Source: Granulicella sibirica (GTDB taxonomy: Bacteria > Acidobacteriota > Terriglobia > Terriglobales > Acidobacteriaceae). From it: 64,000 bases of DNA. Shown here in pieces: positions 12,051-54,399 of the stretch. The notes under the pieces were generated by a model. It ran no database searches, was not told the DNA's origin, and saw nothing but the letters and a program-made list of their open reading frames with translations. Every line of letters begins with the position of its first letter. Within the stretch, counting starts at the first letter, position 1. Position numbers and translations under genes: made by a program. Location of the stretch: NCBI RefSeq assembly GCF_004115155.1, contig NZ_RDSM01000001.1, positions 1,860,001 to 1,924,000 on the forward strand, in the 5' to 3' direction.

Positions 12051-12092
12051 TTCGGTCCCGTCGTTCCCTATTTCGGTCCCGTCGTTGTCTAT
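12051..12092. repeat. Tandem 21-bp direct repeat, two copies
   Basis: TTCGGTCCCGTCGTT followed by CCCTAT (12051-12071) is repeated with GTCTAT (12072-12092), differing at two positions. It sits directly before a dispersed repeat in the gap between the zinc-ribbon and STAS genes. No function is evident. Confidence 0.8.
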
Positions 12093-12195
12093 TTTGTTGT
12101 CACTCCCGAAAGGAATCTGCGTCTGGACGTGCATTTGTCGTTGCCCGTTTCACGCCATCAGCCTCAACGAAGCGAAGGCCCCTGTACTTCGCCTC
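12093..12195 (+). repeat. Dispersed palindromic repeat R1, long form
   Basis: The core GTTGTCACTCCCGAAAGGAATC is a degenerate copy of the R1 core, whose consensus is TTGTCATTCCCGAAGGGAAT. It is followed by CTGCGT and, further on, by CAGCCTCAACGAAGCGAAGG, a degenerate form of the second module seen at 20425 and 50697. It is intergenic and non-coding. The symmetrical core could form a small hairpin in RNA or DNA. Confidence 0.75.
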
Positions 12196-17030: not shown

Positions 17031-17083
17031 TTGCCGTTGTCTTTCTGGTTATCATTCCCGCAGGAAATCTGCGTTTGCCGTTA
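17031..17083 (+). repeat. Dispersed palindromic repeat R1, short form
   Basis: TTTCTGGTTATCATTCCCGC with AGGAAATCTGCGTTTGCCG is a degenerate R1 core between two convergent genes, ending 3 bp before the stop of the FAD oxidoreductase. Confidence 0.75.
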
Positions 17084-18501: not shown

Positions 18502-18532
18502 CCCGCTCCCTCAGATTCCCCGCACCAGCTTG

Positions 18533-18574
18533 GGTGCCCCACCTTCGGCAGTCCTATCGCCTAAGGTGGGTTCC
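18533..18574 (-). repeat. Hairpin repeat R2
   Basis: Read on the reverse strand, this copy has arm CCCACCTTAGGC and arm GCCGAAGGTGGG around a short loop, followed by GGCACC. It differs from a perfect stem only by the A/G mismatch seen in other copies. It lies between the HAD and FAD oxidoreductase genes. Confidence 0.85.
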
Positions 18575-20369: not shown

Positions 20370-20424
20370 CTCGGAGGACTGCCTTCGAAGGACGAGCCGT
20401 CGCTCTCGCAGTCGTAGTCGTTCT

Positions 20425-20531
20425 TGCTTTTCTGGTTGTCATTCCCGAAGGGAATCTGCGTCTGCTGTTGCCGTTGCCTGTTTTACGCCGTCATCCTGAG
20501 CGAAGCGAAGACCCTTGTAGTTCGCCCTTGT
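20425..20531 (+). repeat. Dispersed palindromic repeat R1, long form
   Basis: TTTTCTGGTTGTCATTCCCG with AAGGGAATCTGCGT, then TTTTACGCCGTCATCCTGAG and CGAAGCGAAGACCCTTGTAG. This is the best-preserved two-module copy in the window. It occupies the gap between the isoaspartyl peptidase and nth genes. Confidence 0.85.
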
Positions 20532-24200: not shown

Positions 24201-26330
24201 CTAGCTAGCGCGGGCTTTCGCTTGAATTTCGAGGAAGCAGTTGACGAGGGCTACGGCGGCGGGAGTAACGCCGGGGATGCCGCTGGCCTGGCCGAGCGTC
24301 ATGGGACGGACGCGGGTGAGGGTTTCGACCATCTCGCGAGAGAGACCGGAGCAGGCTTTGTAGTCGAACCAGAGGGGGATCTGGCGGTTTTCGGCGCGCT
24401 TGAGCTTGTCGATGGAACGCTTCTGCTGAACGAGGTAGCCGGAGTACTTGATCTCGGTTTCGACCGTCTTCATCTCGTTGCGGACCCAGGCGGGAAGGTG
24501 ATCAGGAGTCTCGGCGATGGCTTCGAGCCATGGATACAACGGATGAGTCATTTGATCCCACATCTCAGAGGCGAGGTGTGGGGCACCCGTCTTTGCGGCG
24601 AGCCTGGCTAGGAACATGGGGGCCAGAAGGTCGATTGTCAGTTCGGGGCGCTTGAGGAGTTGGGCGTAGGTTTGTCCCTTGAGCGTATGCGGGTCTTCGG
24701 GGGCGATCGCTTCGACGATCGCGACGGTCGGCTGCTCGGTGGTGACGCGGGTAGTCTCAAGGAGCTTCGCGAAGGCGGCGGAGCGTGCCTGGCGGGCCTC
24801 GTAGGCGGCCCAGGTGGCGTCGTCGATGAGGCCGAGACGGCGGCCGTACGGGGTGAGGCGAAGGTCCGCATTGTCGATGCGAAGGTGGAGGCGGAACTCG
24901 GCGCGGCTGGTGAACATGCGGTAGGGCTCGTTGGTGCCCTTGGCGATGAGGTCGTCGATGAGGATGCCGGTGTAGGCCTCGGAACGGTCGAGGGTGAAGG
25001 TTGGGCAGGGAGGCCGGGCGTCCTCGTCTCCCACCTTAGGCGATGAAGCCGCCGAAGGTGGGGCACCCTCATCTTTTCTCCACGTTGCGTAGAGGGCGGC
25101 GTTGATTCCGGCCATGATGCCCTGGCACGCGGCCTCTTCGTAGCCTGAAGTTCCGTTGATCTGGCCGGCGAGATAGAGGCCTTCGAAACGCTTCACCTTG
25201 AGAGTACGGTCGAGTTCGGTGGGGTCAATAGCGTCGTACTCGATGGCGTAACCGGGGCGGAGCATCTCGGCGTTCTCGAGGCCGGGGATGGAATGGACCA
25301 TCGCGGCCTGAACCTCCATGGGGAGCGAGGTCGACATGCCGTTGATGTAGACCTCGTGGGTGGTGAGGCCTTCGGGCTCGAGGAAGAACTGGTGCTGGGT
25401 CTTGTCCGGGAAGCGGACGATCTTGTCTTCGATGGACGGGCAGTAGCGCGGGCCGATGGCTTCGATCTGGCCGGTGTACATGGGGGAGCGATGTACGTTC
25501 TCGCGGATGAGACGGATGGTCTCGGGCGTCGTGGTCGCGATGTGGCAGGAGATCTGGCGGAGGGGGATCTTTTTCGTGCTGAAGGAGAACGGGGTGGGGT
25601 CGGAGTCGCCGGGCTGCTCGGTGAAGCGGGACCAGTCGATGGTGCGGCCATCGAGACGCGGAGGCGTTCCGGTCTTGAGGCGGCACTCGCGGAGGCCGAG
25701 GCGCTTGAGGGCTTCGCCGAGGAGGACGGAGGCGGGTTCGCCGGAGCGGCCGGCAGTGTACTGCTGCTCGCCGCAGTGGATGAGGCCGTTGAGGAAGGTT
25801 CCGGTGGTGACGATGGTGGCGTGGGCGTAGATGGTTCGGCCGTCGCGGAGTTTTACGCCTCGGATGGTTTGGGGTTCCGTGGATCCCACCTTAGGCGATG
25901 CAGCCGCCGAAGGTGGGGCACCCTCGGTTTCGACTGGACCGATTTCGAGGTCGATGACTTCGGCTTGCTTGATGAAGAGGTTGGACTGGGATTCGAGGAC
26001 TTCGCGCATCTTGACGCGATAGAGGGCCTTGTCGCACTGGGCGCGAGGGCTCCAGACGGCGGGGCCTCTTGAGGTATTGAGGAGGCGGAACTGGATGCCG
26101 GTGGCGTCGGCGACCTGGCCCATGATGCCGCCCAATGCGTCGATTTCGCGGACGAGATGGCCCTTGGCGATACCGCCGATGGCGGGGTTGCAGGACATCT
26201 GGGCGATGAGGTCGAGGTTCAGGGTGAAGAGGGCGGTGCGGAGACCCATGCGAGCGGCGGCCATGGCCGCTTCGCAGCCGGCGTGACCGGCTCCGACTAC
26301 CAAAACGTCGTATTGTTCGGTGTACGGCAT
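24201..26330 (-). CDS. mnmG: tRNA uridine-5-carboxymethylaminomethyl modification enzyme with two inserted peptides
   Basis: The 709-residue FAD enzyme (usual length near 630) works with MnmE to modify U34 of tRNAs. Landmarks are [12 protein letters not shown] (residues 12-22), [25 protein letters not shown] in parts, [33 protein letters not shown], and [15 protein letters not shown] with [13 protein letters not shown]. Two segments do not belong to the family: [15 protein letters not shown] at about 136-148 and [15 protein letters not shown] at about 421-434. Both are encoded by a 39-bp hairpin repeat found elsewhere as intergenic DNA. They lie in loops away from the FAD site, so the protein is probably functional. 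ATG 26330 is used; the frame extends nine residues further upstream through the G-run of element C. Confidence 0.97.
25030..25068 (-). repeat. Hairpin repeat R2 inserted in frame in mnmG (site 2)
   Basis: A 39-bp unit with arms CCCACCTTAGGCG and CGCCGAAGGTGGG, loop ATGAAGC and tail GGCACCC. It encodes [13 protein letters not shown] within MnmG, between the FAD-domain segment ending YATWRKDE and LDRSEAYTG. Confidence 0.92.
25885..25923 (-). repeat. Hairpin repeat R2 inserted in frame in mnmG (site 1)
   Basis: This differs from the 25030 copy at one base in 39 and is read in the same frame, giving [13 protein letters not shown]. It interrupts the loop between EVIDLEIG and [12 protein letters not shown] of MnmG. 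Confidence 0.92.
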
Positions 26331-27705: not shown

Positions 27706-27820
27706 AGACAGACGCAGATTCCCTTCGGGAATGACAACCAGAAAAGCAACGGCAGGTGCGATTGAGCGTTTACGTTCCCACCTTCGCCGACGATGAGACC
27801 GTCGGAAGATGGGGCATCCC
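27706..27820 (-). repeat. Composite repeat: R1 core plus R2 hairpin
   Basis: An R1 core (27706-27754, reverse strand) is joined through TTGAGCGTTTACGTT to an R2 hairpin (27777-27820) with loop ATGAGAC and tail GGGGCATCC. The same R1-spacer-R2 order occurs at 54267-54384, so this is a composite unit. Confidence 0.8.
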
Positions 27821-27864: not shown

Positions 27865-27910
27865 CCCCACCCTATCCGACGATGAGACCGTCGGAAAGGA
27901 TGGTGCACCC
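27865..27910. repeat. Hairpin repeat R2, variant stem
   Basis: The arms include CTATCCGACG and CGTCGGAAAGGATGG around loop ATGAGAC, with tail GTGCACCC. Stem bases differ from the mnmG copies while the loop and tail are kept. It lies 13 bp from the stop of the DedA-rhodanese gene. Confidence 0.8.
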
Positions 27911-48750: not shown

Positions 48751-48812
48751 GCAACGACAACAGAAGACGCAGATTCTCTTCGGGAATGACAACCAGAAAG
48801 GCAACGGCAACG
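48751..48812 (-). repeat. Dispersed palindromic repeat R1, short form
   Basis: On the reverse strand: TTTCTGGTTGTCATTCCCGA with AGAGAATCTGCGTC. It fills most of the gap between the 75-residue membrane protein and pspA. Confidence 0.85.
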
Positions 48813-49109: not shown

Positions 49110-49153
49110 CCCACCTTCGGCACGATGGAACCGTGCCTAAGGTGGGGCACCCC
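49110..49153. repeat. Hairpin repeat R2, extended stem
   Basis: CCCACCTTCGGCACG and CGTGCCTAAGGTGGG pair with the same single mismatch as other copies, loop ATGGAAC, tail GGCACCCC. It lies between the flotillin and small membrane protein genes. Confidence 0.88.
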
Positions 49154-50696: not shown

Positions 50697-50800
50697 CGAG
50701 ATACAGGGGTCCTTCGCTTTGCTCAGGATGACGGCGTAAAACTTGCAGCGGCGAAGATAAACGCAGATTCCCTTCGGGAATGACAACCAGAAAGGCAACT
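50697..50800 (-). repeat. Dispersed palindromic repeat R1, long form
   Basis: On the reverse strand: TTTCTGGTTGTCATTCCCGA with AGGGAATCTGCGT, then TTTTACGCCGTCATCCTGAG and CAAAGCGAAGGACCCCTGTA. It occupies the gap between the NfeD-like and flotillin genes, inside the presumed operon. Confidence 0.85.
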
Positions 50801-50806
50801 GCCCGC

Positions 50807-54262: not shown

Positions 54263-54266
54263 CCAG

Positions 54267-54384
54267 CGGCAGGCGCAGGTTCCCTTGGGGAATGACAACC
54301 AAGGAGGCAACGGCAAGAGCACTATTGAGCGGTTTACGTTCCTATCCTAACCGGCGATGAAACCGCCGGTTAGGATAGGGCACC
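54267..54384. repeat. Composite repeat: R1 core plus R2 hairpin with a fully different stem
   Basis: The R1 core (54267-54315, reverse strand) is joined by ATTGAGCGGTTTACGTT to an R2 hairpin (54341-54384). The arms CCTATCCTAACCGGCG and CGCCGGTTAGGATAGG are perfectly paired over 16 bp, with loop ATGAAAC and tail GCACCC. The stem sequence is unlike other R2 copies but the pairing is kept. Confidence 0.88.
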
Positions 54385-54399
54385 CGAGCGCGGGGCGGA

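Follow-up and report, generated by a model that had tools for sequence, protein, structure and literature searches.

The window, by which we mean the whole 64,000-nt stretch of Granulicella sibirica DNA analysed here, contains the mnmG (gidA) gene on its minus strand at 24201..26330. The gene starts with an ATG at 26330 and codes for a protein of 709 aa, which matches TIGR00136 with 775.7 bits (cut-off 524.85) in an unbroken frame and has relatives of known structure, among them 3ces_A and 3cp2_A. Two copies of a 39-bp hairpin lie within it, both on the minus strand and in the same phase: one at 25885..25923, corresponding to residues 136-149 (loop 1), and one at 25030..25068, corresponding to residues 421-434 (loop 2). 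The gene strand of each copy reads GGGTGC-CCCACCTTCGGCGGC..GCCTAAGGTGGG, abbreviated for the loop 1 copy as GGGTGC-CCCACC..GGTGGG, and the rest of MnmG is normal. The copies agree at 38/39 bases and both are in frame; the account of this pair in the initial annotation—its coordinates, shared strand and phase, the single base difference and the normal flanking protein—stands in full. A chance repeat is ruled out as the origin of the 39-mers by the finding that none of 100 dinucleotide shuffles of the window had two matches at ≤3 mismatches. In isolation, each 39-mer is predicted to fold at -21.3 kcal/mol (z -3.35 and -2.45) into a hairpin of 13 pairs with one internal mismatch, and in the minimum-energy fold of a 121-nt context the hairpin is kept by one of the two copies.

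Both insertions fall at variable loops, as had been proposed from the letters of the gene. Related MnmG proteins vary in length at both positions, and both loops are short in the solved 3ces and 3cp2, which we take to be MnmG of E. coli. In the AlphaFold model, whose mean pLDDT of 64 supports the loop positions only roughly, the loop 1 copy lies between predicted strands 125-132 and 154-161, with residues 136-148 at pLDDT <50, and the loop 2 copy comes immediately past the predicted helix 397-420; residues 423-477, conserved ones included, also have pLDDT <50. The nearest relative (L004/L085; 81-85% identity) is without both inserts, and hence the window copies look young.

The same unit recurs in the window at five places that the gene finder calls intergenic: 18532..18570 on the minus strand (39 bp, 51.5 bits, 5 mismatches) and, on the plus strand, 27777..27819 (43 bp, 49.7 bits), 27866..27910 (45 bp, 62 bits), 49110..49152 (43 bp, 53.4 bits) and 54341..54385 (45 bp, 63.8 bits). 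All of these had been reported initially and are real, although two starts shift by a base (18533 to 18532, 27865 to 27866) and the copy at 49110 is a 43-bp variant. A covariance model built from 30 copies and then run over the G. sibirica genome (G000; 6.14 Mb, 16 contigs) at E ≤0.01 gives at least 126 matches, amounting to at least 107 separate non-overlapping places once 19 of the 126 that overlap a better match are left out. The 107 listed places are mostly 45 bp (58 copies) or 43 bp (22) long, followed by 44 (nine), 42 (nine) and 39 bp (five), with 46, 37, 47 and 33 bp represented once each. The unit is an imperfect hairpin, mostly of 33-39 nt, with an unpaired GGGTGC tail, and mostly measures 39-45 bp overall; the tail or a near variant of it is found in the tabulated copies. 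Seventeen of 25 genomes of the genus, G. sibirica included, carry family matches at E ≤1e-7.

By location, 95 of the 107 listed places are intergenic, three are at gene edges and nine are within called genes; these are home-made calls from a gene finder trained on the 516 kb of own-genome stretches examined, 81% of which is coding, and they would score broken genes as intergenic. The intergenic copies lie between co-directed genes in 52 cases, convergent ones in 40 and divergent ones in three, a pattern of gene orientation that is also described for REPs in passages of PMC3733652. A target-site duplication, sought around the own-genome copies, gave no signal, and the ends of the inserted unit are thus not fixed. 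The family hence resembles REPs in being a short imperfect palindrome of many copies that is mostly intergenic. The GTAG/GTGG (or CGTC) tag is absent from the foot of the hairpin, and canonical REPs, as far as the text seen of PMC6006769 goes, are tied to a GT[AG]G tag.

The link to RAYT transposases comes from relatives. Of 52 Y1_Tnp matches, 42 were checked for flanking hairpins, two own-genome and eight same-order ones being left out. Hairpins occur within 350 bp on both sides at 17/42 places in nine same-genus genomes, some of them resting on matches of about 20 bits (L376, L378, L384, L396), and on one side at two more; by hand count, the other loci hold 24 matches over 420 kb, a density at which about 0.02 two-sided cases are expected. 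At 14 of the 17 bracketed places the antisense copy is upstream and the sense copy downstream. The two bracketed ORFs that were tested score 100.5 and 114.7 bits against REP_Tyr_transpos (NF047646), for which the cut-off is 80, and the RAYT-flanking copies of L149 and L150 have the GGGTGC tail. REPs that flank a RAYT gene are therefore present in same-genus relatives, and this bracketing suggests that the family is probably RAYT-mobilised. The G. sibirica genome has only two partial Y1_Tnp matches. At L210 (C3:1035792-1036239) there is a decayed RAYT remnant with a REP hairpin at each end (1035792 and 1036197); this remnant, at C3:1036043, has one internal TAA and, at 30.4 bits, falls short of the cut-off (80). 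The arrangement is that of REPtrons, RAYT genes flanked by REPs, from which it differs in that the hairpin foot has no GT[AG]G guide tetranucleotide and the own genome retains only RAYT remnants. In the nearest relative, G005, no hairpin-flanked RAYT was found: its sole Y1_Tnp match (L144) has no family hairpin within the 2.1-kb locus.

Among the matches listed for G. sibirica, eight of the nine copies within called genes are truly internal; the ninth (L232, 30 bits), on the other strand and close to a C-terminus, is left out of this count. The hosts are mnmG (two copies), alaS, gyrA, smc, polX, a PMT/ArnT-like glycosyltransferase and an M1-family peptidase, which adds six genes of this genome to the one initially noted. 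All eight copies have one strand and one phase, four being 45 bp and four 39 bp long. In every case the frame in use reads GAPPSxxxxSxKVG or a close variant, rich in Gly, Ala, Pro and Ser. As each internal copy has three to five stop-free frames, an even draw from these would give such agreement with a probability of 1.2e-4. The 52 intergenic copies between co-directed genes comprise 32 in the orientation of the internal copies and 20 in the opposite one, so that orientation alone is not so one-sided. The 39-bp form makes up 4/8 of the internal copies versus 1/99 elsewhere (p 6.6e-5, among the matches listed); put otherwise, four of the five 39-bp copies are in genes, including the three near-identical ones. 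A length of 3n by itself separates the two sets weakly in this genome (8/8 internal versus 65/99 others, p 0.053), and a AACGTAAACCGCC-like right-hand flank is seen in 0/8 internal copies versus 39/99 others. Selection for the GAPPS frame at the level of the element itself was considered and rejected: the frame is open in 76/99 non-internal copies, fewer than the sense frame s0 (95) and a2 (87). As a separate observation, the REP at the 3' end of a frame in L219 (3957-4001), which we named TonB-receptor-like by eye, seemingly supplies its stop codon; the end of this frame looks shifted.

We compared these genes with up to 30 relatives each, some of whose rows are too short to cover the site. 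No row that spans the site has the gyrA or polX insert, a single relative has an insert at the alaS position (G016, 38.4 bits), and the smc insert is common to G. sibirica and, again as the single case, its nearest relative G005 (68.7 bits). Several relatives' rows have unrelated length variation at the insert positions. The shared SMC insert differs at 9/45 bases and 6/15 residues, and the SMC proteins of the same pair at 205/1299 aligned residues; the insert has thus diverged faster than its protein (9/15 residues kept versus 1094/1299, or 84%), which argues against a conserved peptide, and functional conservation of the SMC insert peptide is rejected on this count.

G005, most likely the same assembly as L004 (JAMFSC010000033.1), provides a replicate. 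It has at least 150 family matches, of which 113 places were read, plus one in G007; six of 120 matches in these two genomes were dropped as overlapping or present in two loci, and six of 30 loci are covered by larger stretches. Its 44-bp form represents a very recent burst, 73 of the 93 copies read being letter-identical (e.g. L422-L490). Only one of these 93 is in a called gene, close to the 3' end, versus 6/12 of the 45-bp copies read (Fisher 3.8e-6), a contrast in which copy length cannot be separated from copy age, as the 44-bp form is young. The 45-bp hosts are smc, a class I tRNA synthetase, uvrA and one PMT glycosyltransferase gene with three copies, and all six internal 45-bp copies are read in the GAPPS/GAPSS frame. 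The three in-frame REPs of the glycosyltransferase gene (L405, 745-1545) include two that are a likely tandem duplicate; the PMT-domain gene of G. sibirica (L202) likewise carries one copy. A 43-bp copy in G005 uses another frame in a long ORF that combines symporter and beta-lactamase-family domains, possibly at the point where two genes join. When both genomes are pooled, 14/86 copies of length 3n are internal versus 2/134 of the others (Fisher 5.3e-5, among the matches listed), the events not all being independent, as smc is counted in both genomes and the tandem pair of L405 twice.

Beyond the window, the model has 18 matches inside mnmG frames at 14 other loci (13 of the 80 named loci, together with L092), representing 13 assemblies, as L015 and L054 are both from palsa_287. 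In the numbering of the window protein, nine are in loop 1, four in loop 2, two around residue 260 and three around residue 619; L034 has four copies, one per loop. G007 has one further 43-bp copy in mnmG, just before a PAWVRNEMK stretch, as in the group around residue 619. The inserts of these relatives are read in several ways: on the sense strand as PTHRDEAAMDGAP-like and IPPFAMEPQRMGHP-like peptides, in L011 in the antisense frame of the window copies (GAPSSPTVLSSAKVG) and in L020 in a third frame, VPHASHSEGW. Fourteen of the 18 are of length 3n, and in the remaining ones (41 bp in L008, L012 and L092, 37 bp in L013) the flanks make up the frame. With 18 in-frame hairpins at 14 loci, in four loops and in other frames, the mnmG loops are recurrent landing sites rather than bearers of a family feature. 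On a quick 82-row tree, with the window copies included, the minimum numbers of presence changes for the four loops are 7, 4, 2 and 1, counts that mix gains with losses and rest partly on weak matches of 21-24 bits (L020, L067 and L034 at 4522). If the decayed copies of one clade are counted as a single gain, we infer about ten independent gains in mnmG.

Two further observations concern these mnmG genes. The metagenome assembly palsa_287 (G017) contributes two distinct mnmG genes, L015 and L054, both of them bearing REP inserts; this assembly is possibly a mixed bin. In L023, L028, L034, L046, L048, L053 and L073, MnmG loop 1 has other in-frame repeat-like inserts, which read HPERSxxESKDLRF, LRNDKQ, DQRSAFSVQE and CHSEERSDEE; loop 1 may collect repeats of several families.

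The explanation that we hold to be very probable is REP insertion filtered by selection, which would leave frame-neutral, linker-like copies in tolerant loops. A REP-like element with a non-canonical tail would spread to many places, presumably moved by a RAYT acting on single-stranded DNA. A copy arriving in a gene would survive if the net insertion keeps the frame, brings no stop and yields a peptide that is harmless in a surface loop, and the surviving peptide, presumably translated, would be small and linker-like. The loops of MnmG would tolerate such inserts, which would account for the pair found here and for the differing copies, orientations and frames of relatives; most likely the inserts are near-neutral. 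Rarity in genes would reflect purging rather than targeting: only 9/107 listed places are in genes though 81% of the DNA read is coding, and insertion with selection against damage is the simplest account of this, while an intergenic targeting preference could also be behind it. The exceptions to the 3n rule are the 41- and 37-bp mnmG copies, the 43-bp copy in the mnmG of G007 and the 43-bp and 44-bp copies in other genes of G005.

The initial annotation went further in calling the inserts domesticated, which would mean that the GAPPS..KVG peptide has a selected job as a linker or in binding or regulation in several core proteins. One frame and strand in 8/8 internal copies here and in 6/8 in G005, the choice of core genes and the retention of the smc insert in two species could be read in this way, yet the host proteins are unrelated, most relatives are without the inserts and the MnmG loops of relatives use other frames. 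The faster divergence of the shared SMC insert makes the term too strong, and we regard a selected peptide as highly improbable. That the hairpin itself works, in mRNA through translation pausing or RNA decay or else as a DNA site, with the peptide as a by-product, is improbable as well. Its strong isolated fold and the prevalence of co-directed and convergent intergenic neighborhoods, as for REPs, would fit such a role, but the minimum-energy fold in context loses one of the two mnmG hairpins, and the mnmG positions track variable protein loops under constraint on frame and length.

The remaining alternatives bear on mnmG alone. The near-identity of its two copies raises the question of whether there was one landing and not two, with the second copy arising from the first by local duplication or gene conversion. 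The two copies have different flanks, and their closeness does not single out mnmG, because the glycosyltransferase-gene copy at C1:2043630 likewise differs from each of them only in the loop; a local origin has some chance of being right but appears doubtful. An old origin of both peptides within the MnmG family is hardly conceivable: relatives too vary in length at both loops, but GAPPSA is present in 1/110 MnmG rows, the window's own (some rows being partial and some the same gene twice), and this together with the short loops of 3ces/3cp2 refutes the idea. Insertion with selection against damage is the reading that we retain. A bolder extension of it, which we offer tentatively and think unlikely to hold as a whole, is that a RAYT-driven REP in Acidobacteriaceae keeps seeding segments of 13-15 residues into the same core-protein loops, with genes as refuges in which in-frame copies outlast, and may feed, intergenic ones. 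If true, the element would spend part of its life cycle in protein loops, which would steadily supply new protein sequence.

In-frame REPs are not new as such. Passages of a 2013 study (PMC3733652) report GTAG and CGTC REPs lying within genes in several phyla: uvrA and uvrB are each hit twice, recB is hit at approximately the same site in two Xanthomonas, and genes for DNA repair, for tRNA synthetases and for tRNA pseudouridine synthase are among the hosts; in the passages found, Acidobacteria figure only with transposases flanked by terminal inverted repeats. Those repeats are, like the present ones, short palindromes, mostly intergenic and in some cases in-frame in genes, with a RAYT link for the GTAG repeats. 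The present family differs in its hairpin with an unpaired GGGTGC tail, its acidobacterial host, the hits to four mnmG loops across a family and the dominance of one frame in two genomes. The likeness to Rickettsia palindromic elements (RPEs) drawn in the initial annotation is borne out by in-frame palindromic inserts in unrelated genes, with eight copies in seven genes sharing a reading frame; RPEs, too, are palindromic repeats that sit in frame in genes unrelated to one another, each RPE family having its conserved peptide, and they measure about 150 bp according to the portion seen of a review (PMC10969869). Compared by description, the present elements differ in their length of 39-45 bp, their tail, the RAYT link and the free-living large-genome lineage, although intragenic RPE-4 and RPE-6 are equated with short REPs in PMC3733652, in the passages seen. 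The literature searched, which has most subscription journals outside it, contained no description of in-frame REPs for Acidobacteria or for mnmG, in keeping with the earlier statement that none was known; the portions found of two further papers list Granulicella aggregans in a table (PMC12306157) and mention short repeats in Solibacter (PMC3174227). The entry into mnmG had been called unusual, a word that needs qualifying: intragenic REPs, double hits and copies in tRNA synthetase and tRNA-modification genes among them, have been known since 2013 (PMC3733652, in the part seen).

The family matters as a natural experiment on the passage of a mobile element from intergenic sequence into proteins, with related species showing the same protein loops struck repeatedly. 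Because one family comes in 3n and non-3n lengths (14/86 versus 2/134 internal), genomes allow an estimate of how strongly the reading frame filters insertions. Because a conserved enzyme, MnmG, is hit repeatedly in four loops across a bacterial family, one can test directly whether the inserts are junk or serve as raw material.

The window also contains a second repeat family, with the core ATTCCCGAAGGGAAT or close to it, at seven places: 12073-12125, 17033-17076, 20424-20464, 27709-27749, 48751-48804, 50759-50802 and 54264-54310. At 27709 and 54264 it comes approximately 30 bp ahead of a REP-family hairpin, in the manner of a mosaic element.
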